A stretch of DNA of 64,000 nt from Thysanoteuthis rhombus (taxonomy: Eukaryota; Mollusca; Cephalopoda; Oegopsida; Thysanoteuthidae), in NCBI GenBank assembly GCA_963457665.1, contig OY735207.1, forward strand, positions 36,233,816 through 36,297,815, in the 5' to 3' direction. The notes below the pieces were generated by a model, which had not been told where the DNA came from, searched no databases, and was given only the letters and a program-made list of their open reading frames with translations. The translations under genes and the position numbers were made by a program. This document shows positions 1,331 through 59,974 of this stretch, piece by piece. Each line of letters begins with the position of its first letter. Position 1 is the first letter of the stretch.

Positions 1331-1461
1331 AGTTTGGTTTAACATGACAGCACAGACAAACAGTGAAGCGTTCATTACCTTAAATTTGAAGATTTTGGTT
1401 GTTGTCACAGTAAAAAAACAAAGTCAACTCCAGACTTGGACTGAAGTTTGACAAAACTTAC

Positions 1462-1579
1462 CAAATTGGAAATTGGAATAGGTTGGGCATACATGATAGC
1501 AGGCACTCATCACTCCTTCCATACAAAGGCCAAGACCCATAGCATAGAAAAGGCCGTATGGTTGAGGAATACCATAATG
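1462..1579 (-). CDS. SIDT: SIDT exon 16: TM4 with the SACYHVCP active-site motif
   Basis: This exon encodes residues 634-672 plus one base. It contains [20 protein letters not shown] followed by [17 protein letters not shown], among the most conserved stretches of the family. The Ser and His of SACYH belong to the membrane-embedded metal site seen in SIDT structures; the partner His/Asp residues of the last helices lie beyond the left edge. The donor is G|GTAAGT, phase 1, so at least one further exon follows below position 1. Confidence 0.96.
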
Positions 1580-4500
1580 CTGAAAAGAGATACAAAGATT
1601 CAGTAAATTAGGGTATTTTATAACTATTTGTAATGTTTTGAAAAATAAGCATCGGCATGAGTGCAGATATTTAAGGTTCTGATGTGTATAAGCCAGGTCA
1701 CTTAGCATTTTTTGTGTAGAAAATTTTATAAAGATCAGAAGTTATTTGGTGAAGTTTGGATCAAAATAGCTTTTGATAAGTTTGTGAAATTTTCCTAATT
1801 TTGTTTGATTTACTTTCAATGAATCAGTTTACAAAGTTTGGAACTGAAAAAAGACAAAGTGTTTTCCTAGAGAGACACACATTTTTTTTCAAAAAGAAAA
1901 ATCTTTTTCTGGGTACTACTGTTTGAAGTTTCCTGTTTTGTTCAAAATTAAGCATGTTTCTTTGACTCTTGACTTTTAACACCCTCAAATAACAAAAGAA
2001 ATTAGACTAGCGGATATCTAGAAAATAATTTTTGCTTCAATTTCTGAAATGAGGAATGACCATTACTAGACTTAAACCCAACAAAACAGGCAGAAAAAAA
2101 TTCATGTTCAGCTCATGTAAAAAACAGGGTTAGGCCAAACCAAAGTAAAAAAAAGTTGGTTAATGTGAAAAAGGTGTCAAAAGGGGGACTAAACTTGAAA
2201 AAGGGTGATAAAGTTAGATAAAAAGTGGGGTTAATTTCTCAACAGAGGAGAAGATTAAAATGTAAAAAGTTTAAAAGGAGAAGTACAATGCTAAAAGGGG
2301 AGGGCTTAATTTCATGAAAAAAGGGACTAATGTTAAAAAGAAGAGCTAATGTCAAAAATAGGGTAAATAGTTAAAAAAAAAAGGGGGCATTGCATAATTT
2401 TGGGATAAGTGGGGCTAATGTCAAAAAAAGAGGAGCCCCCCCCAAAAAAAGTGTGTGTGTGTGTGTGGGGGGGGTTAATGTTAAAAAGGGGGAAAACTTC
2501 CCACTCAGTTTTCACCAGTAAAAGAGAAAAAAGGTCATCCTTCAATTTTGACTCCTAAAAAGTGGGAGAAGTCCCCCATAGATTTTGAACACTTCAATGA
2601 TAAAACAAATTCACTATCCATTTGGACTGTAAGGGTTACCTCTCATGTCAACCACTAAAAGTGAAAGACAATTTACACCTTAATTTTGACCTATGAAAAT
2701 GAAAGAAAATTCCCTCTTCAAAATTCAACTTGATTCTAACTCCTGAAAATGGAGAAAAAGATTTCCCACTCAATTTTTACCTTTGAAAGTGAAAAAAAAG
2801 TTCCGATTTTGACATCTAAAAGTGAAAAATTAAAGCCCCCCCTGCGATTTCGTCACCCAAAATTGAAAAAAAAAAATCTACCCCTTGATTTTTACCATTA
2901 AAGTGTAAAAATATTCTTCCTTGTCCAAGTAAATCATTGTATAATAATTCTAAGAAATACCTTAAAATAATCAATGAAATTTTTTGAAATTGACCTAACA
3001 GTTTCTGACCTCTTTCTTAATGAGGATAGGAGATATCATTTTTATCAAACATGAATTACAGTTAAGCTGATCATTTTTCATGAAAACAATTTTCATTATA
3101 ACCAAAGTTTATCTCACGATTCTCTAATGACTTTGAACAGTGATGCTTACTATGAGGTTTTCTTTCAAAATCCTTTCAGTAAGCATGCCTTAACAGTAAA
3201 TTCAAGCAATGGCTTACCTCTGCCAACTGCTGTGCAAATACAATTCATACAAAAAACAACTGGCTGTGCATTATAAAGTTTTATGAACAACAAAAGAAAT
3301 ATACCTACCTGCTCAATGTTTCCAAATTTCTTTACAGTTTCTCTATGTAACAGATCTCTAAAAATATACAAAGAAATCCACAGATCAGCAAAACATTTCA
3401 TTTATAATAAATACTCAAGTTAATAATATAGTTTCATAGTGGTGCAGCTTAGCCAAATAATTGTGCATTTTGTGATAAAAACATAGAATTTGGTACACTT
3501 ATAGCCAAAGGCATTGAAGAGAAAATTGGATGTTGAGCCTTCAGAAATTTTCGAGCTATCACCTATTGCAACCATTTAAAATGCCAGCTGTTTCCAGATG
3601 AATGTGGTATTCTTATGTTATGATATTGAGGATATAATTAATTAAATTTTTTATCATAAATAGTTCTTGGGAATTGCCATATGGACAATACATGCATGTC
3701 ATCAAAAATTAAAGATGTGAGTCATGGCTGGCATGAAAATTGTATTTGCAATGAAGTTGTGTTGACTAGTCTGATATGGATGACCTCAGTGTCAAATCAT
3801 ATCTTTTTATGACACAGAATTAGAATTGGGAACTGTAGAATAACCCAGAAGCTTCCTTTATTCAGTACTCCCTTTCACAGTAATAGAGGCCAACAAAGTT
3901 CAAGCCAGTCAATGTATGATACAGCGAAAGAGCACATGCCTCAAGCATGTTGATCAATGTGGTTGCTGCCAACTTGAGTTTACACAAAAAACACACACAC
4001 ACTTGTCTTGGACTTTTTGTTCTCTTTATTCTAAGTCTTGGACACAATATTAATGACCAGCAAACTGTTCAAGCATGATACATAAAACTGGCTCCTCTAA
4101 TGAGAGAGATCCGACACTAATTATTCGCATTCAAGCCGACTCATCTTTCTTTGTACATGATATATCAATACATATATTAACACTAAGGGCCAAATGATTT
4201 TGTTGACTGTTAGGTATCTTTCAAAGTTCCGAATGCCTGTCAAAGATCATATTTTGGTAGTAGACCCTGAGACACTGCAACAGCTAACATCACAAGATCA
4301 GTATCAACGTTTTGAATCATGATCACCATTTCTTGCTGCATGGGCCACATGTAATAACATGCGACTATCTGTTTTACCCCCTGTGCGTGCATCGAGCAAT
4401 CAATGACAAATCTGGAAATGATGGCTTGCTGAGAACTTTTACATCACCTGTGACAACAAGCTGCTTATCCTCCCTCACAAACCATCTGAGAAGTACATCT

Positions 4501-7500
4501 GGGAGAAAGGTGAACAACTCAGTCTTATTGCTGTCAACTGCAAGAAAGTTTTACCAATTCCTGAGAATGGCTGTAGCACCCACCAAGCATCTGTGCCCCT
4601 TTTCAATGATATGCTCTTGTAGCAGCTTTCAAAGACTCAGGTGTGTAGCGGCCCCACACTAAATCAAGTATTAGGACTTGGAAAAGCTATCAGCATTTAT
4701 GTCTGGCTACAATGCACAAATGCTAATTTTCCATGCTTGCTAACTGAGAAATGAGAAATGAAGTCTAAGGAATAATTCCCACATATGGGACACTCACTCT
4801 AACTTCACGACTATTTATTAGAAAGAAATTGAATCAGTTTAAAAGTTTTAGCTGTGGACTATCAGAACGTACTACACCAAAAAGCCCGTCACACAAAGTA
4901 AGAAATGAAGTAACAGTGATTGGCCCAGATATGAGAATTATTCCTGTTGTTTTAAAGTCAGCAAATTGGAAATAACACATGTGCATTTAAGCCAGGTATA
5001 AATGCTCAGGGTCTACAGGCATTTGGAACAGGACAGTATTTTCAATACCTAGCAGTCCATGACATTGCTGCAAGCCTAGGCCCTTAGAAGAAGGCATGTG
5101 TACTTCCACCATTTCAGGCATTGATAGGCTATTACACACTTTTGGGGCTACTGGGAAAAGACTGTGTGGGCTGTATAGACTGTCTCTTCAGATCTTTCAC
5201 ATGCCGTTCTGAAACAATTTTCTGTCCCGGATGACATACTACAGGAGGTAATAGCCACAATTGAGAGGTTTATGATTCTGCTCTATGACTGAACAAGCAC
5301 ATTTACAGAAATAGACAAGGCAAGGAGGAAGCTTTTTCTGAAGAGACACAATGTGCAGTCAATACCTTCCACAAAGGCAGATCTAGAGGAGCACACTAAG
5401 AGAGCAGTGTATCAAGGAGGCCATGTGTGGGGTCAGATGTTAATGTCCACACCAGAACTACCTCTACTAATGGGGCTGGTCAAAGACATCTGAGGAGTAC
5501 CATGCACAAGACATCTTGCTTTTCTCTCTCTATGGTACACAAAATTATTAATTTTTTTGCCTCAAATATTCCATTTGAAAAAAATACTCAGACTGCAGCC
5601 ATATTTTCCTGAAGTTGAAGACGAAGAGTAAAGTCAGTGAATAAGAATATATATCAAAAAGGGTGGAGTCCTTGAAAAAAAAAAAAACATATTCAGGGGT
5701 GTGGCTCTGAAGTGGATGGAGAACAATTTCAAATTCCCCCCACAGGGTCCCCCCAAAGCTTTCTGCAATGTCTAACATGATACATAATACAGGTCTCAAG
5801 CTCCCAGGTTGGGAACCATTGCACTAACTGTACAATAGTTGAATCTGGGCGACCTTTTCAGTGCTCAATGTTTAATAAACCTCAGCTATGGCCCTGGGTC
5901 TACCTAACCATGGAGCATCATTCAGTAAGAAATCTCTAGTATGAAACTCTTGCCATGTTCAATCATTCACAGTATCTTCTTCAGAAACTTCAAAAATCTC
6001 TAGCTTTACATTTGAGTCACATATTTTCCTTTTTTAAAATGGCAAAAAAGCATATTTTCTTCAATCTTCAAAATGAGAATCAGTAAATAAAATTTGCTAA
6101 TTTTGACAAAATTTTTAAAAAGATGCATAATGATACAGTTCCATTCTCCCTATTCTCTGGACTTGTCTCCAACCAATTACCACTTTTTCAAGGCCTTAGC
6201 TGCTTATAAATGCCAGCAGGTGTTCACCAATTCAGACCAGGTTGAACATGCCTTCCAGCAATTCGTTGACTCCTGTGATCACAGTTTTTATTTTGATGGA
6301 ATAAATTCAATGCTGGATTGTTGGGAACAGTGCGTTGATTTTAATGGTACTTAATTTGACTAATAAAGTTGTGCTGGAATGGGATTATGAAGCCTTGAAG
6401 TTTGTGGTTCAAACTGACATATAAATTTGATTGTGTGATCAGAAAATACTATGGTTTATACAATTTTACTGACCTTCTCCAGACGAGGAGTAGGAACAAC
6501 ATGCCAAGCATGACATAGCCAATATTACTGAAGACATTATTGAATGCACTGAGAACTCCAAACGGCATGGCACACTTGAAGTTATAGTAGCAAGTGTCTT
6601 CATTCCCTGTCAGGTGAAGAACCTAAAAAATAGATAAAAACATGACAATGATCAGAAAAAAACAATTATTCAATATAAATAGCTTTTAAATTACTACACA
6701 ACAATGCAACACCTAGTATCATTCAGTTTATTTAGCATAATGATGGTAAGTTAGTAACAATAGAGAAGAGAACAAGACTGTTCATTTGTTATCTGTTATA
6801 TCTGTATATGTTACATCAACATGCTCAAAATTTAAAAAAAGGTAACAAAGAATAGTATATTATTTGTAAGTACTGATTTTATTTTCATGGTTATTGATGA
6901 ATTGATGCATTGAAATATACACTGTAGTCCCGTTATAACGTGGAAGTCGGGGTCCATAATTTTCTACCACATTATAAGTGAGTCCATGCTGTAATGAATT
7001 TTCCATTATAACAAACCTTATTCCATATCTCGACTCCAACCCAACTTCTTCAAAGCCAATCCTTATAATTCATACAAAAATTAAGATAAAACTATAGGTG
7101 TGGGGGTACAGAGGGGCTAGTCTGGCAGGAAGACAGAAATAAAAATAAAAACTTTTTGAATTGTGATACCTTACCAAGAGGTCACATTTTGTCAAATACT
7201 AGATACATATGTAGTGAGTGTCTGGAGCAGAAGTTTGACAATATCATAATAATTTTTTTAGCAACAGATGAAAGGGAAAGGTGTGATGAGTTTTATCTAT
7301 TGACTTCTGAAATGTTTTAGTCTAATTCATTTCCTTTTTGCAGTTGGTGTAACCTGATTCAGCAGTGGTTTTTCTATTTGAGTATTTAGACATTATTAGT
7401 GATTCTGCATTATATTGAACTGTTTTATTATGGGTCTACAGTATAGCTTAAAAGAAAACAAATACATGGATGTTTTTTTCAACAAGGTAACTTGAAGAAA

Positions 7501-9850
7501 ATAATCCATAAGACATGTATACCTTAAATTGGTGAGGCAAATTATTGGCAATAAATAACACGTTAGACAATCTTGTTTACCTCAGCAAGCAAGGTTCTGA
7601 ATGAATTTTGATGAAATTTAAGGAAGGCTGGACCATGCACTAGGAAAGAGGTATTCAAATTTAGGGGCATCACCAAGAATATTTTTTTAATTGAGATATA
7701 TTTTCCCCCTTTTTTTCCCATGTATTTATTTATATAATCATGTCTGTCCACACAGTATCTCCAAAAGTTCTCACTAAATTTCAATTAAATTTTGTGGGAA
7801 GGTGGGCCACAGGCTAAGTGAGAAGTAATTAAATTTTGGGCCGCATCCAGTAACTTTTTCAGTTACTACTCCCCTGTATTATAGTTATATGTCAATATAA
7901 GATCTCCAAAAGTTATCAATAAATTTCAATGAAACTGTGTGGAAACATGGGACATGGGCTAAGAAAGACGTGATTAAATTTTCGAGTGAATCCAGGGATT
8001 CGTTTTTGATCGTGAGATATCTTTTATTATTCTGTATGAACAGAGGTTAAAAATGAACAGTACGTAAAATTGCTACATCTAAATTTCAAGGGAGGTAACT
8101 CAATATTTGCACATATTTCCCCTTATAAAAAATATTTCATTTCATTCAGTTTTTAGTTAGTGTACAGAGTTGGTTGATGTGTGTGCTCTCTGAGTGCTTT
8201 TTAGTTAGATTCAAAGTGCTATTCCATTAATATCAACTCCCATTTAAAGTATTTAAAATCTTAGTTGTTTTTCATGTTTTGTTCAATCTGACCGTCTTCA
8301 GATGAATGTGTTCAATATAAGAACCTTGTGGTTGAGGTACCCCTACTTATCAGTCTGTTGTCATGATTTTTTTTCCTGATTCATAAGCTCCACTTTAGAA
8401 CTGAAAGCTCACCCACAAGAGGGAAAAAAAACAAACAGAAAAATCTTCACCCAAAGTGAGTACACTGGAGTGTTACCACTACTATAACAGAGCTTTTAGT
8501 GGAATTGAATGAGTCAGCAAAAAGAACCATGAAAATAAGGAAAACCCAACAGACAAAATTATAAGCAGAATAAAACTAAAACAAGACTTTACAATGGACA
8601 AAATCACTTGAAAAAATAACTGACTGAAATTTTGGAGAACGAAAAAGGTTTGGAGGATGGGAAAAAAAAATGATAAATAAAAACATTGAGCATCTTAGAC
8701 ATGAACTTACTTTTTGATAAGTAATCATCAGCTGAACAACAGGTAAGCCATAGAATATGACAATTGTCCATAAATTCCTGAAGGGAAAAAAATCAGTCTT
8801 ATTACAGAATGACTTTAAAACAATTCATCATTCAAAAGCACTTTTATCAAGATCTTTTCCCAGTCATTGACAAAAATGACTCAGAGACTTGAAATTATGA
8901 CATCTACAAATGCTATAATTTAATAATTCAAAATAATTAGTACTTTTTTTCAGAAAAGATAAATATGGAATAAAATAGAATGGATAAGTTTCAGAAGAAA
9001 GATAAGAATCTGTTAGGTTAATATGACAAGTGCCTCTTTTCTTGCCTTTAGACTTAAATCAAAGTATAGTATCTGTTCTTTTTTAATTCAGACTTTGGAA
9101 TTGAATTTAGAGACAATAAAACATTAAATTTGTTCACAAACTTCTTGAGAGTACCACTAATATTTCAAGAAAATTTACAGGTGCTTTTCATGTTTTTCAA
9201 GTAATATACACATAGAATATTGATCTTAGATAGGCAAATAAAAAAAAGTATGAAACCTCACCAATTATATACTTTTCCATACTTGGCCAGTTTTTTCCTT
9301 CCTTTCCTTGATAAGTCTGATACAAATAATGCAGTCTAGAGTGTTTAAAAACAAGAACAGAAAAAAGATAATTTGAGAATACAATATGAATACGTATGAA
9401 AAGAGATTCTTCAAAAGCGGTCAAAAACTTCCATCAACTTCTTTTACATTAGGCTGTTACAGATGAATTTTTTTTTAATCATAAAGATAATGCTAAAATG
9501 GAAAGATATACTAATGTGAATGCATTTTTTTTGTAGATTCAATGTAGGTACATATGAGAGGTTTTGGAGTCCTGAACAGCTATAGGGTCTACCAAATTAG
9601 TTTGACTAATTTTCAAGTACAAATTCAAATGAAGACATAATGCTGCTCAAGTTTCTAATGAGATGCAAGTTCAAGTCTCATTGGAAGTTATACTCCTTCA
9701 TTCATATTTCACACTAAGGTTAAGAGAGTATTTTACCAAGAAAGTTGTGTTGAATAGTAGTGAAAGGATCAAGAAAAGACCAGTTGAAAATTAACTAAGT
9801 CCAACATATATAAAAGAAAAAGATCTGAGATAGATAACGTAAGAAAACAC

Positions 9851-9882
<32 letters not shown>

Positions 9883-12800
9883 CCCCAAAAAAAATGAAAT
9901 TTAAAAAAACCTTTGTTCTAAAAACATCTTTCTCTTCTTCAGCATCATGCAGGAAATCAATGTCTTGAGTATCCAGAGAAGAATTTACTGATGAAGAATC
10001 ATCCGTGGTTGCACTTGGAGCATCCAAGAGGGGAGATGTAGGATCTGTATAAAGACAAGATAAAAATACCATTATAAAACCCCCTCAAAGATGAATCAAA
10101 GTTGTTTTAAGGTCATATTCAGCAGACCTTAATTATTCCTGGAATACTGGGTATTTTCACTTACTTGGTAAGGGAATCTACTTTTTGTCTATGAGCAGGT
10201 ATTTAGGTTTTAGGGATGTCTTTCAAATTCTGATTCTACTGCAGTCAATTTTCATCCATGATACCAAAGAGTGCTTTTTCTCTCTATTCTATGCTGGGGT
10301 AAAGCAAGAGCTCTCAACCCTTAGTACAGAAGTCATGTATTTCCTACAATTCCTAACCAGTTAAATTGAATATCACAGCATGATCCATGACCATTTTGTT
10401 AAAATACATTTCAGTGCCATGAATTGCCCATTGTTCAGTCAATTGATTTTGCAAAAAGCTATGAGACTAAAAATTATTTCTACTGAAATTTCATGCTGAC
10501 TAGCAGGATTATTTTAACAGAAATTGGCTAATCTTATTTTCCTTTGTTAAAACTAAATTGAATTATTGTTCCAAATTATCAGTAATCCTCTCTTTAATGA
10601 TTCTTCAGATGGTGTTCTTAATATGTGGGCTTGTATATTACAGGACACAATTTTGGCTGGATGTTTGTGAAATAGTTCACACTATTATATCTGATGAATA
10701 ATTCATTTTACCTCAATTGTTCCAATTGAATTGTTAATTGAATCATGCACTTTTCGTATATGTATAAGTTGTAAGTAAAGCAAATATTTAAAACACTTCA
10801 TGAAACCGATGATATTATGGTCATGATTTATTGAATAAGTAATTTAGAACTTTCATTCATGCAAATAATTACATAAACAAGTTGGATTAATCACTCAATA
10901 GACACCGTCACGTGACCAATGTCTTTTGGCAACAGGCCATGTTGAGGGTGACCGATTAAAAAACTTGGAAAAAGGGTTGATCAATGATTAAGTTACTTCT
11001 CTAGCATTTTGTTGGACAGTGATCACTAAAAAGTCTGCATTTTCAAAGAAGTATTAACTAGGGATCAATTAAGCATAAACTTATATTCATATATAAACTA
11101 GTATATTGAACTATCCATTAAAAACCTATTGGTTGGGGATTTTAGAAAAACAAAAACAAAAAAAAAAATTTTGTTCCAAGACATGATGAAAAAAACATTT
11201 ACTTTTTCAGCACCCTGACTCCATTAGAGTGGCGTATACACGCGATAATTTAAATAAATGAAAGTACTGATGGTTTATAATGATAATACAGTGAATTCTG
11301 GAGGTAGGGGAGAAAAAGAAACAATGAACTTGACTGCATTAAGGTCAAACTCCCTTGCTTCATTAAAATCTAAAGGGTAAACGGAATCCATTTCTCAACA
11401 CAATATTATTCCAAAACTATCCATCTCATTTCAATTCCTTTATTAGTAATACCTGTAAATAGGATTTGCAAACTGTTGCAAAACAAGTCAACCTGAGTTG
11501 AGCTTTAGGAGTGGGAAATGAATTCATCATCACTTTTAGTGTATGTCACGGTGTCACTGTTTTTCGTGTAGGATGTGAGTGGTTTTCAGTCATTGTCATC
11601 CATCATTGTTGTTACCTATGAAAATGAAGTCAAAACTCAATAGGAGGGGTTTGACAATAGAAAGAAAGAAAACTCTGTCTAATGGTTATTCTGCAACTAG
11701 CCTTGAAAGCAAGGAAACGAGCAAGAAAAAGTGTACTCAGCCTGATGACAGTTAATCCGCCACTGGCCTCGAATTTACCTTCATTGTAATTGTTGTTGCT
11801 TTTTATTGCAACTAAACAATCAAGATTAAGGTAAATAAGGTTGGTTCTTTGGGAAATGGTTTTCGTAGTGTTTTTCGTAAACTAAACTGAAAAATTGCCA
11901 ACTACTTTTTGGAAATCTTTTAAAATCAAACCAAAGAAAACAGTGGTCATTCAAATCAAAACAAACCAAAACGTATTTATTGAATGAACAATGATCCTCA
12001 CCCTCACAACGTCTCAATGACAATAGATTCCAACATGATTTCATCAAATTTTGGAGGGCTTTTCACCTACCCTCTTCAAATTCTATGCTGAACTTTTGAC
12101 ACCATAAATATTAACATCTGACTAATCACGATAGTAAAGTCCATTCTGTAGGAGTTCGACAATGATCATGGATGTATTTTAGTTCATTGCCAAAAGATGA
12201 AGACCTAATACTTTATTATAATGAGAAAACAAGTCATGATAAAAAAAAAATAGTTTTTTCTCACTGCACTTTGCAATGTTAATCCAAAGTTTTTCATAAA
12301 TTAGATAGATAAAAATACAAAAAGCGGCAAAAACACAAAACCTAAAATATATCTCTTATACAAGATATTGGCCATACATTCAATACCAAAGGTATATAAA
12401 GTGGCATGGTCTAGCCCTTTGTGGCTTTTATTTCAAGATCAAAGTGTAGTATTGCTTATTCCCATGTCAATGAAACATGACTTTAAATGCTATTATAATT
12501 GTATTTTAATTGTTTTCTTTATGAATTTGAATTGGATTTAATTTGAATTTTTTTTCAATAAACAAAAAAGAAACTAATGATGTATCATGGTTGTATTTTA
12601 ATGGTTGAATGTTTTTCCTGAATTTTATAAAGCTATTGAAACAATAACTTATATATGAAAACATCATTTAATTACAGAAATACAAAACAAGCAATAATGT
12701 ATTTTAGCACAAAATGTAATAATAATTTATGAGTAAAAAATGAGTCAAAAAAGAGTAATGAAGAGTTATAATAAGAAAAAAATGATTTAGTGAAATCAAA

Positions 12801-34566: not shown

Positions 34567-34616
<50 letters not shown>

Positions 34617-34852
34617 GGCTGTTTATTATAATCACGGATAATGTTATCAAACGGTTATTGTTAACAAAATCAGTTGATACCTGATTTCATATAAATTTTT
34701 TGAAATGTAAAGTTATTTAAAATAATGGATATAATAATATAACAATGAATGTGAATTTTCCAATTTTCATATCTTTTGTTTAATGTTATCATCTGGTTGT
34801 TGTTATCTACAGGACCCAATCCTAAAATGTACTCAGTAAGCAGCTTCCTCTT

Positions 34853-34902
<50 letters not shown>

Positions 34903-35077
34903 CACACATATAGATAGATAGATAGATAGATAGATTGATAGATATACACATACAAACACTAATATATATGACTAAACCTTTTTTATATTTCTCTTTCATG
35001 ATTCATTCTTTTTTTGAACTATTGTATAGAAACTTGACTCTAAATAGTGACAACAGAAGCTTCTATAAATATTGAAA

Positions 35078-35152
<75 letters not shown>

Positions 35153-40148: not shown

Positions 40149-40229
<81 letters not shown>

Positions 40230-52200: not shown

Positions 52201-54668
52201 CGACCAGTTATCTTAAAATGCCTTGTGATCACAATAAGTGGCTGTCTCTGTAGTTGATTAATCTAAAGAAGGGCCGACTTGCAACTCTGTCATCGATTTT
52301 GGTAATTTTCATTTTAGGACACTGGGCCAAGTCGTGTGGGGCATCACTTTAAAGTACGTAAATTTTAATTCAGAGTCATTCCTAATTTAATCATTTTACA
52401 TTAATTTTGGGAAAATTTATGCAGTCAATATTTTTTATAACTTGTCTAAATTTTGGATCTGCAATAAAATTTAATGAAACATAAACCCTCCACCTCACCC
52501 CTAGTTCGAACTACTGCAGCACAGGTGGGTGAGGACAGTGCACATTCAAGACACCTGAAATTAATTAGTTGCTTTGATTGCTCAGGTGCTCGAGGCATAT
52601 CTCTTTTGTGGCTTTAAGCCTATTCTTATATTATACGAAAGAAGTTAATTAGTATGCAGGAAAAAAAGCTACAAAAATAGATCCATTTCGCACTTTGACA
52701 GCAATATGTCCACGTGAGCTTAGACAACCTGGTCTAAACGACTTTTTTAATTTATTGCTAAAAAATATTGTCAGTGCAAAATAAGTTAAGCATGATTTTA
52801 AAGAAAGATCCATTGCTATGATTTTATGAAAAATACATTCATTAACTTACGACAAATAAATAAAATAGAAAAGTAACACAAAAGACGAGCGGAGAATGAT
52901 AAAACAACTTGGATTATTACTCTTTTCTTCTGCTTTCAAAATATAGATTAATAAAAACATTACTTCATTTCAAATTCAACTACTTTTGTCTGTTTGTTGT
53001 TGTTGTTTTTAAGATTCAAACAATCATTTTTGGTTTTCATAAGCGATTATTCACTATTCTTTTCCTTTCCTACTTTCATAAATTTTAAGATTTAAAAAGA
53101 AAAACTATCAATCAACAAACTTTTAAATAAAAATAACGTCCACATCCCAAGGTTTAAAATCCTAAAACAAATAGTTTGGTGTGTGTATGTGTGTGTTAGC
53201 TTAAAGTAGCGAGAAGCTTTGACCGGACTTGTAAATTCAAATTAAGTGGATTTTCCCCGGTGACTCAACCCTTGTGACGGCCAAAGAGAAACTAAATTTT
53301 TCACCCTGAACGAACATTGTTGACTAGTGAATAACATAAATCTGTGATAACTTTCAAGAAAACATACACATAAGGGGAGCTTGTTTCTGGTTTCTACTAG
53401 TTCTTCACACCTTTCACTGCGTAACCTGCAGATTAAAGTCTTATTTACTTACTACTAGGGAGACCGCTTTCGTTATAACCGGGATAATAATATCAAAATA
53501 AGTCTATTAATTATTCAAATCTGTATCCTTTGCTTAAATATTATCAATCAGTTATTGTTATCGAAAAGAGTTCCCCCACAAGTGATTACAATAAGCGTCT
53601 TCCACTGTATTTACTAAAAAAAAATTTTTAAATAAGTGTTTGTAGCAGCTCAGACTCTCCACGAGCCCAACAAATTATTCCTCTTTTTAATTAATTGTGG
53701 TCAATTGAGTAAGATCTCGTGCTCAGTCAATGGTGATCGAACGAAAAATGGGGGGAAAAAAGTGATTAGAATAACATGTACTGAAAATGTTTTCTTTCCA
53801 GTTAAATCGTAATGTTCGTAGATTTTTTTTAAGATCAAATATCGGATATTTACTTACTTTTTTTTTTTTTTTCATTAAGGAGATATCCAAAATCTTCTGC
53901 TCTTGGTGGTCCAAGACAAAAACATACTTGAATTCTCAAACTTACATGAATTTATACACTAAACTTTATGTAATTGAAAAAATAATGGCCTAGCTTTGAG
54001 GACCAATAGTAATTTGAAACAAGAGTTTGGTTTTAAAATGTTTGAAAATAAGGAAAATGATGAGTTTACGCTTTATCAACAAAACAAAGCTGGCCCCCCC
54101 CCAAACCCTAAGAAAACAAGGGATAACAATGGAATATGAACATAAATTCGTCTATTTATTTGCCTACCTCGTTCCATGATTCCTCGTATTGGTATACATA
54201 AACAATTTCGTGTGTCTTATTGACAGTTCCATGATATTCTTGGCCGAAACTTGCGTTCCTTCTATTTTTCAACTGAATCTCTTCAGTATTAGTGGGAATC
54301 CTCTTGAAAGATGTCCGAACTTGCGATTGTTTTGAACTTGGTCCAACTGGCTGGGGAGACAACAAAGACCCATATTTTTTATTCCAATCCGAAGAGGCAT
54401 CAGGAGAATTTCGTAGTTGTAATGGTGGTGATTCATAATTTCTATTTTGATTTTTGCTTGAAGTAAAATGATCTTTCACAGGATTAGAGAAGCCCCCGAC
54501 TTCTCTGTTATTGGTGGTCACTGATCGGGGTTCTGGTTCATGATGACGATAAAAAAAACGCCCGTTTCTCTCATTTCGGTTGTAACACCATCCGGATGAG
54601 TTCCAGAAACAGCAGAGGATAACCAACTGAATCCATATACGTCTATTCAATTGTAGGAAAAAACGCAT
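1462..54668 (-). CDS. SIDT: SID1 transmembrane family protein (SIDT1/SIDT2-like), split gene, 5' 16 exons, C-terminus off the left edge
   Basis: Sixteen exons on the minus strand join in frame (672 codons plus 1 base) with GT/AG borders throughout. Order from the start: signal peptide and polar segment (residues 1 to about 150), extracellular beta-rich domain (about 155-390), TM1 (about 391-420), cytosolic loop (about 421-540), then TM2, TM3 and TM4. Family signatures seen: [54 protein letters not shown] and SACYHVCP. The family (nematode SID-1, vertebrate SIDT1/SIDT2, CHUP-1) is known for dsRNA/nucleic-acid transport and cholesterol binding. Structures place a zinc site with putative hydrolase character in the membrane core; SACYHVCP would supply a Ser and a His of it. 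Vertebrate members have about 830 residues, so about 250-270 residues should lie beyond position 1. The family call is firm; whether it is SIDT1- or SIDT2-like, and its function here, cannot be decided. Confidence 0.96.
1580..3308. other. SIDT: SIDT intron between exons 15 and 16
   Basis: Apart from the minisatellite this intron holds AT-rich sequence with no recognisable element. Confidence 0.7.
2140..2920. repeat. Degenerate minisatellite, two unit types
   Basis: From about 2140 to 2540 there are repeated ~20-base units of the type GGGGCTAATGTTAAAAAG, including C8A7 and a (GT)n tract at 2451-2467. From about 2500 to 2920 the repeat turns into ~38-base units of the type CTCAATTTTGACCTCTGAAAGTGAAAAAAG. 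The units are diverged but rhythmically ordered. This is an intronic tandem array with no coding content. Confidence 0.75.
3309..3357 (-). CDS. SIDT: SIDT exon 15: short loop between TM3 and TM4
   Basis: This 49-base exon encodes the last base of Arg and [16 protein letters not shown], corresponding to the [20 protein letters not shown] region of vertebrate SIDT. It has little conservation itself but links exons 14 and 16 in perfect phase (2 in, 0 out). The donor is CAG|GTAGGT. Confidence 0.86.
3358..4309. other. SIDT: SIDT intron (exon 14-15 side), unassigned part
   Basis: AT-rich intronic sequence. A short (CA)n occurs near 3985-4000. I recognise nothing else. Confidence 0.6.
4310..5612 (+). 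pseudogene. Broken copy of a multicopy metazoan gene of unknown name (probably mobile)
   Basis: The plus strand carries, with stops and frameshifts, blocks I recognise from a family found in many copies in cnidarian and mollusc genomes. These are [22 protein letters not shown] near 5010-5085, then [10 protein letters not shown] (from an ALTGCDT motif), [10 protein letters not shown] near 5260-5290, and [20 protein letters not shown] near 5405-5465. I cannot name the family with certainty. Copy number and decay suggest dispersal by transposition. The part before about 5000 is more eroded and less certain. No function is proposed for this copy. Confidence 0.6.
6094..6400 (+). mobile_element. 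Mariner transposase C-terminal remnant
   Basis: The open stretch reads [21 protein letters not shown] followed by a polar C-terminus with [11 protein letters not shown]. This matches the mariner HPPYSPDLAPSDYHFF catalytic region (third Asp region) and the W-x-KCVDSNG end. The N-terminal two thirds are missing. It lies antisense to SIDT, in the exon 14-15 intron. Confidence 0.85.
6474..6622 (-). CDS. SIDT: SIDT exon 14: luminal loop and transmembrane helix 3
   Basis: This exon encodes about residues 568-616. It holds [19 protein letters not shown] with two conserved Cys, then [20 protein letters not shown]. Both align with SIDT2's VTGNQDICYYNFLCAHPLG and LSAFNNILSNLGYILLG. The acceptor is TTTTTTAG and the donor AG|GTCAGT, phase 2. 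Confidence 0.96.
6917..7443. mobile_element. Non-autonomous pogo/Tigger-like element (MITE)
   Basis: The left end is TACACTGTAGTCCCGTTATAACG; the right end, read inward on the other strand, is TATACTGTAGACCCATAATAA. This gives imperfect terminal inverted repeats with TA at both outer edges. The end resembles pogo/Tigger termini known from other animals (inference). The interior has no transposase. It lies in the exon 13-14 intron. Confidence 0.65.
7581..8015 (+). repeat. Tandem repeat, three ~150-bp units of a common invertebrate type
   Basis: Three diverged units begin near 7581, 7755 and 7898. Each has a core like ATCTCCAAAAGTT, then AAATTTCAATGAAA, then TGTGGGAAGGTGGGCCA, then GTGATTAAATTTTGGG and a TCCAG end. 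Spacing is about 174 and 145 bases. Similar units are widespread in marine invertebrate genomes and sometimes sit inside larger non-autonomous elements. Confidence 0.75.
8015..8710. other. SIDT: SIDT intron (exon 13-14), right of exon 13
   Basis: AT-rich intronic sequence in which I recognise no element. Confidence 0.55.
8711..8777 (-). CDS. SIDT: SIDT exon 13: transmembrane helix 2
   Basis: This 67-base exon encodes [20 protein letters not shown] plus QK, matching the family's [21 protein letters not shown]. It is a complete TM span. The acceptor is TTTTTTTCCCTTCAG and the donor AAA|GTAAGT, phase 0. It is too short to appear as an ORF. Confidence 0.95.
8778..9261. other. SIDT: SIDT intron between exons 12 and 13
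   Basis: Short AT-rich intron (484 bases) with no recognisable element. Confidence 0.7.
9262..9335 (-). CDS. SIDT: SIDT exon 12: basic amphipathic linker before TM2
   Basis: This exon encodes about residues 521-544. [23 protein letters not shown] corresponds to the family's [23 protein letters not shown]. A split Trp codon (TG|G) joins it to exon 13. The right frame is not the longest open frame here, so a simple ORF caller misses this exon. The acceptor is CACTCTAG and the donor TG|GTGAGG, phase 2. Confidence 0.92.
9440..9690 (+). mobile_element. Mariner 5' fragment, paralogue of the copy at 16607
   Basis: Shares with 16607-16830 the sequence order CTGTTACAGATGAA, then TAATGCTAAAATGGAAAGAT, then GGAGTCCTGAACAGC, then GTCTACC and TTCAAGTACAAATTCAAAT. 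In the longer copy this leads into the mariner N-terminal helix-turn-helix. The copy breaks off after about 250 bases. Confidence 0.65.
9847..9885. repeat. (CA)n microsatellite next to exon 11
   Basis: A CA tract interrupted once by an extra A, about 25 bases from the exon 11 donor site on the intron side. Confidence 0.9.
9911..10044 (-). CDS. SIDT: SIDT exon 11: cytosolic loop, acidic [10 protein letters not shown] segment and FRTK
   Basis: This exon encodes about residues 476-520. [17 protein letters not shown] and then [10 protein letters not shown] align with the vertebrate [27 protein letters not shown] loop. The donor is AAG|GTTTTT, a GT with a poor downstream consensus. It continues in frame into exon 12, so it is probably real, but it is the weakest 5' splice site of the gene. 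Confidence 0.9.
10045..10879. other. SIDT: SIDT intron 10, proximal part
   Basis: AT-rich sequence with no recognisable element between exon 11 and the dispersed repeat. Confidence 0.55.
10880..11240 (+). repeat. Dispersed repeat family, copy 1 (second copy at 61776)
   Basis: Shares with 61776-62125 the blocks TCACTCAATAGACACCGTCAC, CTTTTGGCAACAGGCCAT, GGTTGATCAATG, GTGATCACTAAAA, GGGATCAATTAAGCAT and, near the end, GACTCCATTAGAG. It has no coding potential. The order of blocks is the same in both copies, so this is one dispersed element type. Confidence 0.75.
11241..13018. other. SIDT: SIDT intron 10, unassigned 1.8 kb
   Basis: AT-rich sequence. I see no transposase, reverse transcriptase or ordered repeat. 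Confidence 0.5.
13020..13206. mobile_element. Possible small MITE with pogo-like ends
   Basis: The left end TACACTTCAACCTTGATCTAAAAG and the reverse complement of the right end, TACAATGCACTCTTCTATAACAA, form weak inverted ends. Internal TTGTTATATCAAGGTTTGTTATA recalls pogo-type termini. It is short and diverged. Confidence 0.4.
13855..14125 (+). mobile_element. RTE-like LINE 3' fragment, copy B
   Basis: Decayed C-terminal region of the RTE open reading frame: [19 protein letters not shown], then ESIKNLKWQ, then [11 protein letters not shown] with frame breaks. It is colinear with 38815-39120 of the longest copy. The tail is lost after about 14125. Confidence 0.8.
14226..14465. repeat. Inverted pair of tRNA-like SINE sequences
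   Basis: At 14385-14463 (plus) there is a tRNA-like unit: D arm AGCTCAATGGTAAGAGCA, an anticodon-like stem CAGCT/AGCTG, T arm GCAGGTTCGATCCCTGC, then CAGCCCCA. At 14229-14265 the minus strand carries a second T-arm-like end, GCAAGTTCAATTCCTGCAGC, followed by AGCCCCATTTTTT. The two outer ends are therefore inverted copies of AAAATGGGGCTGYTGCAGG. The 5' acceptor strand does not pair with the 3' end, so neither is a working tRNA gene. Confidence 0.7.
14685..14930 (+). mobile_element. RTE-like LINE 3' end, copy C
   Basis: Reads decayed [18 protein letters not shown], then a broken RWRD region, and ends ACGGACATTAAAAGACTGATGATGATTAATA. The 3' end matches copies A, D and E, so this is a genuine 3' terminus with a short (TGA)n tail. 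Confidence 0.85.
14931..16606. other. SIDT: SIDT intron 10, unassigned part with a short 20-bp tandem repeat
   Basis: AT-rich. The only ordered feature is three units of about 20 bases like ATTGTTATAAATTTACACTC at 15484-15545. Open frames near 15609-16027 overlap on both strands and show no family similarity. Confidence 0.55.
16607..17340 (+). mobile_element. Mariner transposon relic
   Basis: The plus strand reads, with stops, [20 protein letters not shown] and [10 protein letters not shown] (mariner paired-like domain, QRWF-x-RFRSGD), then RRPTTNK, then a KMGPHEQNE block (from WVPHEL). A late [10 protein letters not shown] block is possibly the transposase tail. It is too broken to be active. 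Confidence 0.8.
17341..18459. other. SIDT: SIDT intron 10, distal part
   Basis: AT-rich sequence up to the exon 10 donor. No element recognised. Confidence 0.5.
18460..18519 (-). CDS. SIDT: SIDT exon 10: cytosolic loop, symmetric 60-base exon
   Basis: This exon is phase 1 in and phase 1 out, encoding [20 protein letters not shown]. The SYGSI piece resembles the YGSF/SYGY motifs of the vertebrate SIDT cytosolic loop. The acceptor is TTGTAG and the donor G|GTAAGT. Like exon 9 it can be skipped without changing frame. Confidence 0.82.
18826..19125 (+). repeat. Tandem ~125-bp repeat, two units and a partial third
   Basis: GGAAAATGATTTCTCAAT recurs at about 18867 and 18992, with a truncated third near 19095. 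The units share AAGGGAAGTAACCAAAATACTTCAA and TTTCATATAACAGATGGAAAGT. An A-rich slip separates the second and third units. Confidence 0.75.
19300..19590. mobile_element. Possible mariner-type MITE
   Basis: The left end AAGGTCTCTCAATGAAGAGACC and the right end, reverse complement AAAGTCTCTCAAAAAGTTTTTCC, form short inverted ends of a kind seen on mariner-related elements. The interior is non-coding. Confidence 0.4.
19769..19976. repeat. ~70-bp inverted repeat (hairpin) made of two head-to-head mariner pieces
   Basis: The left arm 19771-19840 and the reverse complement of the right arm 19903-19974 share AACTGTCCATGAAGTTTC, AGATAGGAATCTGTAGA and AACATGATTTCAAAAGAAA, with a ~62-base loop. Each arm, read outward-in, encodes the same mariner helix-turn-helix piece ([13 protein letters not shown], then NMISKE), so the hairpin arose from two opposed transposon copies. 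It lies in the exon 9-10 intron and would be transcribed with SIDT. Confidence 0.85.
19980..21930. other. SIDT: SIDT intron between exons 9 and 10, distal part
   Basis: AT-rich. A faint pogo/Tigger-like start ([12 protein letters not shown], then [10 protein letters not shown]) appears near 20954-21070 but is too short and broken to call. Otherwise unassigned. Confidence 0.45.
21931..21993 (-). CDS. SIDT: SIDT exon 9: cytosolic loop, symmetric 63-base exon
   Basis: This exon is phase 1 in and phase 1 out, encoding [21 protein letters not shown]. The acceptor is CTATCCCAG after a pyrimidine tract and the donor G|GTAACT. The acidic/serine-rich composition resembles the variable cytosolic loop between TM1 and TM2 in the family. 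Its removal would not shift the frame, so it may be a cassette exon. Confidence 0.78.
22202..22722. mobile_element. Mariner-family deletion derivative (MITE) with clear terminal inverted repeats
   Basis: The left end CAAGGTCTGTCTGGAAAGTATCCAGC and the reverse complement of the right end, CAAGTTTTGTACAGAAAGTATCCAGC, agree over about 26 bases. The GTCTGTCTGGAAAGTATCC terminus is typical of one mariner lineage (recalled, not searched). The ~520-base interior has no open transposase, though the minus strand may carry eroded coding sequence. Confidence 0.75.
22723..23655. other. SIDT: SIDT intron between exons 8 and 9, middle part
   Basis: AT-rich intronic sequence with nothing recognised. Confidence 0.5.
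23656..23855 (+). mobile_element. Mariner transposase C-terminal fragment
   Basis: Reads [20 protein letters not shown] followed by [16 protein letters not shown], the mariner region after the third catalytic Asp (SP-x-DY-x-FKHLDHFL-x-D). It breaks into stops directly after. Confidence 0.8.
24124..24167 (-). CDS. SIDT: SIDT exon 8: start of the cytosolic loop (44-base exon)
   Basis: This very short exon (phase 2 in, phase 1 out) encodes [14 protein letters not shown]. It is preceded by an excellent T-rich tract and CAG, and followed by G|GTAAGT. It has no family motif because this loop is variable. The call rests on strong splice sites, an open frame and phase compatibility with exons 7 and 9. 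Confidence 0.82.
24360..24400. repeat. (TA)n microsatellite
   Basis: TA-rich tract with ATATA/AATATA interruptions. A second short (TA)n lies near 24510-24530. Both are in the 608-base intron between exons 7 and 8, which is otherwise plain. Confidence 0.8.
24776..24869 (-). CDS. SIDT: SIDT exon 7: transmembrane helix 1
   Basis: This exon encodes about residues 389-419. It starts VDKYSYA and continues as one uninterrupted hydrophobic stretch of some 24 residues ([19 protein letters not shown] and so on) ending IYYL. That is the first membrane span after the extracellular domain in all SIDT proteins. The acceptor is a long T tract with CCAG and the donor TG|GTAAGA, phase 2. Confidence 0.92.
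25038..25380 (-). repeat. Dispersed repeat family R2, copy 1
   Basis: Same orientation and block order as 30483-30830: CGGTGTTTTCCGCAGGAAAAC, AACATCTCTAGATTCTGGAG, AGGAGTACTGATGCCA, ATATGGCCAGGAGAGCTAGAA, then an AAACCTTTGCCA-like block. It has no coding capacity. The family is present three times in this gene's introns. Confidence 0.75.
25381..27424. other. SIDT: SIDT intron between exons 6 and 7, remainder
   Basis: AT-rich. CTGATCTCCATCTATCTCTC and CTGATTCTCATCTAATTATC (25460 and 25690) sit in two diverged direct copies of about 225 bases (25440-25600 and 25670-25800). Otherwise nothing is recognised. Confidence 0.5.
27425..27575 (-). CDS. SIDT: SIDT exon 6: end of the extracellular domain
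   Basis: This exon encodes residues 339-388 plus one base. It holds FYVVLVLMP, matching the family's FYVVVVVK strand, then a Cys (MECSS) and a membrane-proximal strand, [13 protein letters not shown]. Three N-glycosylation sequons are visible (NSS, NLT, NKT), consistent with a luminal or extracellular position. The acceptor is TTTGCAG and the donor G|GTAAGA, phase 1. Confidence 0.94.
27590..27870. repeat. A-rich degenerate tandem sequence
   Basis: Repeated phrases such as AAAATTGAAAAATACAATAA and AAATTAAAAAATGCAATAG fill most of the 347-base intron between exons 5 and 6. It is a loose ~20-base periodic low-complexity array. Confidence 0.55.
27923..28006 (-). CDS. SIDT: SIDT exon 5: CPVYD / GLYQTM segment
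   Basis: This 84-base exon is phase 0 at both ends and encodes residues 311-338. It carries [20 protein letters not shown] and KEAAIVVQ, nearly colinear with vertebrate SIDT (CPVYDLD...GMYQTMTKKAAITVQ). It is symmetric, but its loss would remove a conserved Cys and a core strand, so skipping is unlikely to be neutral. Confidence 0.95.
28301..28445 (-). CDS. SIDT: SIDT exon 4: second extracellular beta domain
   Basis: This exon encodes about residues 262-310. [15 protein letters not shown] matches the family's KY-x-F-PEGVDSVIV element. It is followed by a conserved Cys (TNCLTM) and SIQDIR, which leads directly into the next exon's CPVYD. The acceptor is CTAG and the donor AGG|GTTTGT, a less typical GT donor, phase 0. 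Confidence 0.94.
28800..29545 (+). mobile_element. Mariner transposon relic
   Basis: Blocks in order: [18 protein letters not shown] (cf. RTCQRWF-x-RFRSGD), [29 protein letters not shown] (cf. WVPHEL), YWDNVRPWS (cf. HHDNARPH, second catalytic Asp) and [11 protein letters not shown]. Frames shift several times and the final Asp region is unrecognisable, so it is inactive. It lies in the exon 3-4 intron, antisense to SIDT. Confidence 0.88.
29957..29979. repeat. (TTTG)n microsatellite
   Basis: About five TTTG units at the edge of the R2 repeat copy. Confidence 0.85.
29985..30240 (+). repeat. Dispersed repeat family R2, copy 2 (left arm of an inverted pair)
   Basis: TACCCTTTTGTCTACAGACT and GGCATCAGTACTCC are matched in the opposite orientation at 30657-30720. 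The outer parts (TTTCTAGAGG, then GTGGAAAATGC, then AATAGAATC) also match. The arms are about 240 bases separated by about 240 bases. Confidence 0.8.
30483..30830 (-). repeat. Dispersed repeat family R2, copy 3 (right arm of the inverted pair)
   Basis: Carries GGCGTTTTCCACTAGATAAC, AACATCTAGAAACATAATTA, GGAGTACTGATGCC and GTCTGTAGACAAAATGG. Same orientation as copy 1, opposite to copy 2. Confidence 0.8.
31269..31430 (-). CDS. SIDT: SIDT exon 3: extracellular domain, YQVSRTLCP segment
   Basis: This exon encodes about residues 208-261. It starts with one base that completes Gln, then [12 protein letters not shown], a hallmark of SIDT proteins with a conserved Cys. It continues through a polar strand region ([15 protein letters not shown]) holding an NST sequon and ends KNFELR. 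The acceptor is TTTTTTCTCTCAG and the donor AG|GTAGGG, phase 2. Confidence 0.95.
31431..32399. other. SIDT: SIDT intron between exons 2 and 3, first kilobase
   Basis: AT-rich sequence. Open frames at 31681-31869 and 31905-32201 show no family resemblance. Confidence 0.5.
32400..33060 (+). mobile_element. CR1-like non-LTR retrotransposon, 3' end of the reverse transcriptase ORF
   Basis: Broken frames give [10 protein letters not shown]-x-[41 protein letters not shown] and [19 protein letters not shown]. This is the order found at the C-terminus of CR1-like ORF2 (LIRP-LEYC-x-AW, LSYEERL, RR-x-RGDLIE-x-FK, NWNSLP-x-x-V). About 220 codons remain, with stops. It lies antisense to SIDT. Confidence 0.85.
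33061..34560. other. SIDT: SIDT intron between exons 2 and 3, unassigned part
   Basis: AT-rich intronic sequence in which I recognise no element. Confidence 0.5.
34571..34612. repeat. (TA)n microsatellite
   Basis: About 21 TA units directly abutting the left end of a MITE copy. Confidence 0.95.
34611..34855. mobile_element. MITE family M1, copy 1 (inserted in TA repeats)
   Basis: The left end is ACAGAGGCTGTTTATTATAATCAC; the right end inverted is CAAGAGGAAGCTGCTTACTG. Internal ATAATGTTATCA and GGTTATTGTTA motifs recur. Copies 2 and 3 lie at 52076 and 53454. (TA)n tracts touch both ends. Confidence 0.7.
34856..34945. repeat. (TA)n followed by (TAGA)n
   Basis: A TA tract at 34856-34900, a short mixed segment, then about eight TAGA units to 34945. 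Confidence 0.95.
35079..35150. repeat. Long perfect (TA)n
   Basis: About 36 uninterrupted TA units, which produce spurious YIYIYI open frames on both strands. Confidence 0.97.
35160..36740. other. SIDT: SIDT intron between exons 2 and 3, unassigned 1.6 kb
   Basis: AT-rich intronic sequence with no recognised element. Confidence 0.5.
36764..37725 (+). mobile_element. Penelope-like element remnant with GIY-YIG endonuclease region
   Basis: The open part reads [20 protein letters not shown], then [19 protein letters not shown] and [19 protein letters not shown]-type text. Downstream, with stops, come [50 protein letters not shown] and [11 protein letters not shown]. This is the order I know from Penelope-like retroelement C-termini, where a CPL-x-G/C...Y-A...YIG block is the start of the GIY-YIG nuclease. 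The reverse transcriptase proper is missing upstream. It ends where an RTE copy begins. Confidence 0.75.
37728..39175 (+). mobile_element. RTE-like LINE, longest copy (D), 5'-truncated
   Basis: Translates, across several frameshifts and stops, to the RT fingers and palm. Blocks are [26 protein letters not shown]-type text, [14 protein letters not shown] (RT box A), a DETR-x-YQ remnant of RQGDTSSP, and [18 protein letters not shown] (catalytic FADD box). Then come [52 protein letters not shown] and [14 protein letters not shown]. It ends CAACGATAGACATTATACCAAAGACTAATAATGATGATG. The endonuclease domain and N-terminus are absent, and it is inactive. It has the same orientation as all other RTE copies here. 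Confidence 0.92.
39180..40018. other. SIDT: SIDT intron between exons 2 and 3, unassigned part
   Basis: AT-rich intronic sequence with no recognised element. Confidence 0.5.
40018..40095 (+). repeat. tRNA-derived SINE-like head
   Basis: The box A-like TGTAGCTCAGAGGTCTGA and B box-like AGGTTTCAATCCTGCC are spaced as in a tRNA promoter. The rest does not fold as a tRNA. Confidence 0.5.
40153..40256. repeat. Compound (TA)n / (CATA)n microsatellite
   Basis: A TA tract, then about six CATA units, then TA again. Confidence 0.95.
40257..41625. other. SIDT: SIDT intron between exons 2 and 3, exon-2-proximal part
   Basis: AT-rich. The overlapping open frames at 40866-41111 (plus) and 40952-41440 (minus) have no family resemblance. 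I treat them as chance. Confidence 0.5.
41626..41747 (-). CDS. SIDT: SIDT exon 2: first extracellular beta domain
   Basis: This exon encodes residues 168-207 plus two bases (phase 0 in, phase 2 out). It contains the motif [19 protein letters not shown], which matches the VVRQ-x-x-x-V-x-SW/F-x-(I/V)P signature near the start of the SIDT extracellular domain. The acceptor is a polypyrimidine tract followed by TTAG, and the donor is CA|GTAAGT. It is flanked by the two longest introns of the gene, 12.4 kb on the exon 1 side and 10.2 kb on the exon 3 side. Confidence 0.94.
41748..43390. other. SIDT: SIDT intron 1, exon-2-proximal part
   Basis: AT-rich. A very weak tRNA-like pair (TGTGGTTCAGTAACT near 41999 and GGTTTGAATTTGC near 42029) is the only hint of an element. 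Confidence 0.45.
43395..44560 (+). mobile_element. CR1/jockey-like non-LTR retrotransposon relic (RT and C-terminus)
   Basis: Broken blocks in order: [16 protein letters not shown] (RT box A, DFSKAFD-x-VDH), [29 protein letters not shown] (box B, SG-x-PQGSVLGP) and a frameshifted FADDTKL-like box near 43655. Then come [18 protein letters not shown] and [20 protein letters not shown] (cf. SLREHSF-x-VHGARLFNCLP). The catalytic frame is disrupted. It lies antisense to SIDT in intron 1. Confidence 0.87.
45310..45775 (+). mobile_element. Tc1-like transposase, N-terminal half (split element, left part)
   Basis: Starts [20 protein letters not shown] followed by [15 protein letters not shown], the Tc1 first helix-turn-helix. 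Later come [20 protein letters not shown] and [13 protein letters not shown], the DESRFS box containing a catalytic Asp. The coding text stops at 45775, where RTE sequence begins, and resumes at about 46685. Confidence 0.85.
45776..46682 (+). mobile_element. RTE-like LINE copy E, inserted inside the Tc1 element
   Basis: Begins within the RT at [20 protein letters not shown] and continues [31 protein letters not shown] and [17 protein letters not shown]. It goes on [19 protein letters not shown] and [13 protein letters not shown], with few frame breaks. It ends AACGGACATTAAAAGACTGATGATGATGATGATGATGG, a clean (TGA)n tail. This is the best-preserved copy here, so it is probably the youngest. Confidence 0.92.
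46683..47135 (+). mobile_element. Tc1-like transposase, C-terminal half (split element, right part)
   Basis: With frameshifts: [39 protein letters not shown] and HTARKTREW (second Asp region), then [19 protein letters not shown] (third catalytic residue region, SPDLNPIEH). The order continues exactly from the block at 45740-45775, so both halves are one element interrupted by the LINE. Confidence 0.87.
47165..47695 (+). mobile_element. CR1/jockey-like LINE 3' fragment
   Basis: Blocks [37 protein letters not shown] and [13 protein letters not shown] match the C-terminal end of CR1-like ORF2 (FFS-x-RV-x-NWN-LP-x-x-VV, S-NSFK-x-x-LDK). Confidence 0.75.
47700..48680. other. SIDT: SIDT intron 1, unassigned kilobase
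   Basis: AT-rich. Nothing recognised. Confidence 0.5.
48682..49640 (+). mobile_element. Second Tc1-like transposon relic
   Basis: A terminal-repeat-like ACTGGTAAGCCAAAACATTATGACC at 48685 is followed by [30 protein letters not shown] and [18 protein letters not shown] (first Asp). Then come [29 protein letters not shown], and after frameshifts an LQDNTTLHN-like trace of the second Asp box. It belongs to a different Tc1 lineage from the 45310 element. Confidence 0.87.
49640..49895 (-). mobile_element. Reverse transcriptase fragment, minus strand
   Basis: The minus strand reads [30 protein letters not shown] (catalytic F/Y-x-DD box) and, after a frameshift, VIGAKLTV (cf. GAKLN). This looks like a non-LTR RT palm. 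It is too short to place in a clade. It is one of few elements in the sense direction of SIDT. Confidence 0.6.
50120..50400 (+). repeat. Degenerate minisatellite with a GTGGGTTTGTCTACTGAA-type unit
   Basis: GTGGATTTGTCTACTGAAC, GCAGGTTTGTCTACTGAAA, GTGGGTTTGTCTATTAAAT and GTGGGTTTATCTACAAAAT recur every 50 to 120 bases with CTCTCTC spacers. The open frame through it is a by-product. Confidence 0.65.
50574..50837 (+). other. Unrecognised open frame, 87 codons
   Basis: A lysine/glutamine-rich, helix-prone open frame ([20 protein letters not shown] and so on) with no family I recognise. It has no start context or splice evidence. It could be a fragment of a transposon gag-like protein or chance. 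Confidence 0.25.
51155..51250 (+). repeat. tRNA-derived SINE-like head
   Basis: The box A-like GTTCAGTGGTTAGCAAGCTGG and a later GTGTTTGATCCTCACTGGG (B box-like) are spaced like a tRNA with a long variable region. Not a functional tRNA. Confidence 0.5.
51660..51935 (+). repeat. Tandem repeat, two ~145-bp units
   Basis: CAGCTGTTTCAAGTCAGATT recurs at 51680 and 51822, followed in both by TACTT-AAAC, CTTGATAA-ATG and TCTTATC/TTTTACC. The layout resembles the array at 63318 (CAGCCGTATCATGTTGGATT), so both may belong to one repeat superfamily. Confidence 0.75.
52076..52253. mobile_element. MITE family M1, copy 2
   Basis: The left end ACAGAGGAAGTTACTTATTATAATCAC and the inverted right end CTACAGAGACAGCCACTTATTGTGATCAC form about 27-base imperfect terminal inverted repeats. 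TTAATGTTATCAGCTGG is repeated in inverted form inside. Confidence 0.8.
52254..53453. other. SIDT: SIDT intron 1, unassigned part
   Basis: AT-rich. A short (GT)n lies at 53178-53196. Nothing else recognised. Confidence 0.5.
53454..53610. mobile_element. MITE family M1, copy 3
   Basis: The left end CTAGGGAGACCGCTTTCGTTATAACC and the inverted right end TACAGTGGAAGACGCTTATTGTAATCAC, with internal AATAATATCA and ATTATCAATCAGTTATTG motifs. It is shorter than copies 1 and 2. It lies about 560 bases from exon 1. Confidence 0.75.
53611..54167. other. SIDT: SIDT intron 1, exon-1-proximal part
   Basis: AT-rich, with homopolymer runs. No element recognised. Confidence 0.55.
54168..54668 (-). CDS. SIDT: SIDT exon 1: signal peptide and polar N-terminal segment
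   Basis: This exon encodes residues 1-167. The ATG has a G at -3 and two As before it, an acceptable Kozak context. Residues 1-28 look like a signal peptide: basic RR, then hydrophobic [10 protein letters not shown], then small residues SSG. Residues 30 to about 130 are rich in N, S, R and P with no recognisable fold. Sequons NAS and NKT lie near residues 140-152. The end, [14 protein letters not shown], enters the first beta domain. The donor is GAG|GTAGGC, phase 0, and joining to exon 2 creates an N-E-T sequon at the junction. I found no 5' UTR intron or clear core promoter upstream. Conservation is weak until the last 25 residues, so the call depends on splice continuity with exon 2. Confidence 0.85.
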
Positions 54669-58130: not shown

Positions 58131-58134
58131 AGAG

Positions 58135-59972: not shown

Positions 59973-59974
59973 TA

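Follow-up and report, generated by a model that had tools for sequence, protein, structure and literature searches.

Exon architecture of a SIDT gene in the squid genome

The window, a stretch of 64,000 nucleotides from the squid Thysanoteuthis rhombus (G000:C10:36233816-36297815, in a genome of 2.73 Gb and 514 contigs), carries on its minus strand the first 16 exons of a SIDT gene, which in our spliced model comprises 24 exons over 74,979 bp and encodes 923 amino acids followed by TAA. The region analyzed (164 kb) took in the window and its flanks, 60 kb on the lower side and 40 kb on the upper. The A of the ATG lies at window position 54668 and the stop at genomic C10:36213505; all 23 introns have GT-AG borders, and the translation is free of internal stops. 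Exons 1 to 16 run from 54668 to 1462, the last base of exon 16, and sum to 2017 nt (672 codons and one further nucleotide). An initial annotation had proposed 16 in-frame exons and 672 codons with these same ends, giving neither strand nor inner exons, and the rebuilt model reproduces those ends and that length. The 3′ exons, which it had expected in an adjacent contig, were found on the same contig: all eight (exons 17 to 24) lie on C10 below the window.

A tblastn search with human SIDT2 as bait, which served for leads only, gave a collinear series of minus-strand matches amid many chance ones, and exon borders were set from splice sites and the frames read around likely exons. Exons 15 and 19 were placed by homology, splice sites, and phase, whereas for exons 8, 9, and 10 the choice relied on phase and splice sites without homology. 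A plus-strand location of the gene was ruled out, as PF13965 matches are all on the minus strand; two frames of plus-strand positions 1-14998, with stops read as X, gave no Pfam match.

Exon 1 (54168-54668) holds the ATG, a start that looks signal-peptide-like by eye, an N-terminal extension that is polar and about 100 residues long, and the beginning of the luminal domain. It gave no Pfam match on its own and sits within a 185-aa open reading frame (ORF), the longest in the window; 1 of 60 block shuffles equalled or exceeded that length, so ORF length is only suggestive as an argument for this exon. The luminal domain continues through exon 2 (41626-41747; identity to SIDT1 at 18 of 40 residues), exon 3 (31269-31430; tblastn E 7e-5), exon 4 (28301-28445; E 1e-5), for which a weak donor was picked to keep the frame, and exon 5 (27923-28006; E 6e-9), and ends in exon 6 (27425-27575), which is covered by the phmmer alignment to SIDT1. 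Exon 7 (24776-24869) encodes TM1, the strongest hydrophobic stretch of the protein (residues 396-414).

The cytosolic loop between TM1 and TM2 is assigned to exon 8 (24124-24167), exon 9 (21931-21993, 63 nt, uncertain), exon 10 (18460-18519, with a weak acceptor), exon 11 (9911-10044, an acidic stretch with a weak donor), and exon 12 (9262-9335, 74 nt, a basic stretch before TM2), the last two resting on tblastn leads and the phmmer alignment. TM2 lies in exon 13 (8711-8777, 67 nt; E 1.7e-4), and loop 2-3 with two conserved cysteines, followed by TM3, in exon 14 (6474-6622; E 1e-16). Exon 15 (3309-3357, 49 nt), also covered by the phmmer alignment, was the best of three candidates judged by homology, splice sites, and phase, and exon 16 (1462-1579; E 3e-13) contains TM4 by alignment. 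All of these are on the minus strand. Exons 12, 13, and 15 had been described as escaping detection as ORFs; they are indeed short, but exon 13 lies inside an 82-aa stop-to-stop frame (8576-8824, minus).

The exons below the window, likewise on the minus strand of C10, are exon 17 (36232029-36231893), exon 18 (36230289-36230187), exon 19 (36227510-36227437), exon 20 (36225027-36224981), exon 21 (36222710-36222605), exon 22 (36218419-36218309), exon 23 (36216035-36215922), and exon 24 (36213567-36213505). The window therefore holds 672 of the 923 codons, without TM5 to TM11 (by alignment) and without the two C-terminal zinc-site histidines, H887 and H891. The window's functional core is plausibly this SIDT gene, though present there in that partial form: upstream of it (54700-64000) none of the six frames gave a Pfam match at E ≤ 0.1, and nine intron stretches tested matched transposon families or nothing.

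Family membership and copy number

The spliced protein almost certainly belongs to the SID-1/SIDT family, as the initial annotation had recognized. On the 672 in-window codons PF13965 (SID-1_RNA_chan) scores 361 bits, its curated cut-off being 28.7. The independent test of the model, free of the SIDT2 bait, was a phmmer search of the spliced protein against PDB, in which residues 136-923 aligned with residues 43-827 of human SIDT1 (774 bits, E ~1e-231), the alignment reaching the last residue of both proteins. Human SIDT2 followed with 702 bits, split into two stretches, and nematode SID-1 with 112 bits over residues 571-923 only. Identity is 45.6% over 802 columns to human SIDT1 and 44.3% over 788 columns to human SIDT2. 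These alignments place the predicted squid protein nearer to SIDT1/2 than to the SID-1 of nematodes. Matches to 8k1b_A (153 bits, residues 141-364) and 8k11_A (143 bits, residues 135-364) identify a predicted beta-rich luminal domain homologous to that of SIDT1/2. Residues 1-133 were unaligned with any PDB chain among the phmmer matches listed. Two further profiles, PF06847 and PF07497, matched the in-window protein at E < 0.1 but fell below their own cut-offs and were dismissed.

A genome search with PF13965 gave six matches, all on the minus strand of C10: two lie inside the window and the other four a short way below. A second search used the last 356 residues of the protein and gave 12 matches, of which 10 fell at the SIDT locus and the other two had E values of 0.2 and 0.3. 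No second SIDT copy was found by either search among the best candidates scored, and the gene is apparently single copy; since only the best candidates were scored, a highly divergent second gene could escape.

The genome also encodes mollusc-type hemocyanin (52 matches to PF14830). The best match of one unit is 6r83, and another scores 835.5 bits with 4yd9_C, a squid protein, versus 715.6 bits with 1js8_A, an octopus protein, which points to a cephalopod, probably a decapodiform squid; an octopus, considered at first, was rejected on this ground. On another contig (G000:C25:56607734-56625492), nine tandem PF14830 units with the same score and a 464-aa open frame each are spaced 2174-2184 bp apart, and the 324 bp matched in each show 100% identity across the nine. 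Over 1.9 kb compared without gaps, the first unit matches the next seven at 86.5-87.8%, a value lowered either by indels or by real difference. This is either a recent tandem array or an assembly artefact.

Support for individual exons

The tblastn search of the 164 kb gave 16 matches at E ≤ 0.5, every one of them on the minus strand. Modelled exons are overlapped by 15 of these matches, which fall in 15 different exons among the 24. The sole off-model match lies at window-relative 77488-77339 (E 0.24). Each of 51 shuffled or reversed control baits gave some match at E < 10, the best at 0.012, and 12 of the 16 real matches are better than this. Taken singly, the matches in exons 20, 11, and 12 (E 0.04-0.32) fall short of significance. 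Nine of the 24 exons (1, 2, 6, 7, 8, 9, 10, 15, and 19) were unmatched at E ≤ 0.5 and are supported by context and the later alignment. Agreement of phase is not independent evidence for exons 8, 9, 15, and 19, because they were picked partly for phase, nor for exon 4, because its end was picked to keep the frame. Donor scores are poor for exon 4 (-0.1) and exon 11 (-1.4).

The TM1-TM2 loop deserves separate consideration. A strict first scan for loop exons gave no usable chain; a looser one between 24777 and 18520 gave several phase-compatible segments, of which 24167-24124 (exon 8) and 21993-21931 (exon 9) were retained. Splice sites are strongest in exon 8 (score 16.3), the sole open segment of 40-220 nt scoring ≥16 on the 75 kb of the gene strand, and 64 kb of the opposite strand contain none of this class. 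Exon 9 (score 7.3) is doubtful, because three segments of its class occur in the same 64 kb of the opposite strand. Residues identical to human SIDT1 number 0 of 14 in exon 8, 3 of 20 in exon 9, and 4 of 19 in exon 10. When the loop was searched alone with TM1 and TM2, SIDT1 was still matched (77 bits). Skipping exon 9 or exon 10 leaves the frame intact, and exon 9 is a symmetric 63-nt cassette that could be skipped in frame. It is the least certain of the 16 in-window exons, possibly a site of alternative splicing or else a false exon.

Introns, surroundings, and integrity of the gene

Long introns split the gene, the first two being 12.4 kb and 10.2 kb. Nine intron stretches were tested; four matched transposon families (one below cut-off) and five matched nothing. 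Reverse-transcriptase fragments (PF00078) lie antisense to SIDT on the plus strand in intron 2 (37724-39022) and in intron 1 (45754-46149, 49.6 bits). The two places share a nearly identical run of about 48 residues, as if from one element family. In intron 3, positions 28706-29466 (plus strand) gave a weak match to the Mos1 transposase HTH (16.7 bits, below cut-off). The single Rfam match in the window is a tRNA-like element in intron 10 (RF00005, 14380-14461, plus strand, 34.7 bits), possibly a tRNA-derived SINE. Upstream of the gene, 59598-59970 and 63385-63801 are occupied by tandem arrays whose units measure about 100, 119, and 140 bp.

Very long introns carrying transposon fragments might be expected of a decaying copy, and a pseudogene was considered on this ground. 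All 24 exons, however, can be spliced and read through in frame, the cysteines and zinc-site residues are kept, and genome searches found no second copy as a possible parent among the best candidates scored, so that decay is hardly credible. The squid SIDT is very probably an intact gene.

Predicted topology and conserved sites

With a simple hydropathy cut-off, nine stretches exceed the threshold, versus 11 TMs in the family; the whole membrane domain aligns with that of SIDT1/2. The zinc site of SIDT2 consists of S564, H568, D579, H796, and H800, as given in PMC10272179, and the corresponding predicted zinc-site residues in squid, S658, H662, D673, H887, and H891, are all present. Ser658 and His662 lie in exon 16, the codon of Asp673 is split across exons 16 and 17 with its first base in the former, and both histidines of the C-terminal part lie in exon 23. 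Cysteines C578, C584, C664, and C878 are kept as well and match the loop disulfide cysteines of SIDT2 described in the same paper.

Exon 10, itself placed by splice sites and phase, carries YGSI, a motif of the YxxPhi sorting type, at residue 467 in the TM1-TM2 loop, aligned with YGTI in SIDT1 and YGSF in SIDT2. In a paper on another protein (PMC10402054), three YxxPhi motifs between TM1 and TM2 are stated to take SIDT2 to lysosomes, and SIDT2 Y359GSF to bind AP-1 and AP-2.

Proposed function

The features above are most readily explained if the gene is a single-copy, apparently intact cephalopod orthologue of SIDT1/SIDT2 with a role like that of the human proteins, a reading to which we assign a probability of roughly 0.85. 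By analogy with human SIDT1/2, YGSI may be bound by adaptor complexes, and the protein would then be carried to endolysosomes or the cell surface; the intramembrane zinc site would act as a slow zinc-dependent lipid hydrolase; and the protein may share in nucleic-acid uptake or trafficking, where a part as endocytic receptor or helper is likelier than one as an open channel for RNA. An endolysosomal role in lipid hydrolysis and nucleic-acid handling is, on the strength of the human proteins, somewhat favored. How the family works is disputed in the literature between channel, transporter, and endocytic receptor (PMC11194109 and PMC12056583). The movement of dsRNA or nucleic acids and the binding of cholesterol, both cited at the outset, describe the family and would hold for the squid protein only by extension.

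Does the squid possess a true SID-1-type importer of dsRNA, and with it systemic RNAi as in C. elegans? The Pfam name and the family are common to SID-1 and the squid protein, and the membrane domains of the two are related, but the alignment with nematode SID-1 is limited to membrane residues 571-923 and scores 112 bits, versus 774 for SIDT1, and we regard such an importer as distinctly unlikely. Membership of the family does not by itself entail transport, since CHUP-1, a nematode member, is reported in PMC5714486 not to transport dsRNA. A protein handling chiefly cholesterol or other lipids, like CHUP, with no nucleic-acid role, would agree with the intact zinc-hydrolase site, with six matches to the loose CRAC pattern, and with the resemblance to SID1 claimed for CHUP1 (cholesterol uptake protein 1) in PMC10769365. 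CRAC patterns arise by chance, however, and PMC11194109 implicates the two mammalian relatives in the uptake of nucleic acids, so that a role confined to lipids is possible but not the expected one.

A more specialized role can be imagined from the long polar N-terminal luminal extension, the remodelled cytosolic loop, and the possibly skippable exon of 21 codons, in which the single squid SIDT would be a dedicated nucleic-acid receptor letting squid cells take up extracellular RNA; this we hold to be very improbable. Under the preferred reading as a SIDT1/SIDT2 orthologue, and if its function is like that of SIDT1/2, the gene is a candidate for testing uptake of extracellular RNA, or silencing by delivered dsRNA, in cephalopods. 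The model given here is complete and testable, and it covers the one SIDT gene that turned up in this squid genome, a locus whose long introns would lead annotation based on ORFs to fragment it.

Comparison with known SID-1 family proteins

Cephalopod or mollusc SIDT is undescribed in the titles and abstract beginnings among the matches listed from one open-access library. Within the family, C. elegans CHUP-1 belongs with the squid protein by the literature (PMC5714486), no chain of that name being among the phmmer matches listed from PDB. C. elegans SID-1 (PDB 8xbs, 9l8m, and 8hip) has the membrane domain in common with the squid protein, and PMC11194109 reports an H3-S-D site there as well, but it is much more distant (112 bits), and its luminal domain was left unaligned by phmmer. 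Human SIDT1 and SIDT2 (PDB 8jul, 7y63, and others) share the luminal and membrane domains, the zinc site, the loop cysteines, and a YxxPhi motif in the TM1-TM2 loop. The squid protein differs from the human ones in three points: homology to SIDT1 starts at squid residue 136 and SIDT1 residue 43, leaving 93 extra residues in squid; the squid TM1-TM2 loop is divergent; and one gene was found in squid, compared to two in human. The squid SIDT gene is an ordinary, expected orthologue of a well-studied family and not a new kind of gene; what is new here is the complete gene model, together with its divergent N terminus and loop.
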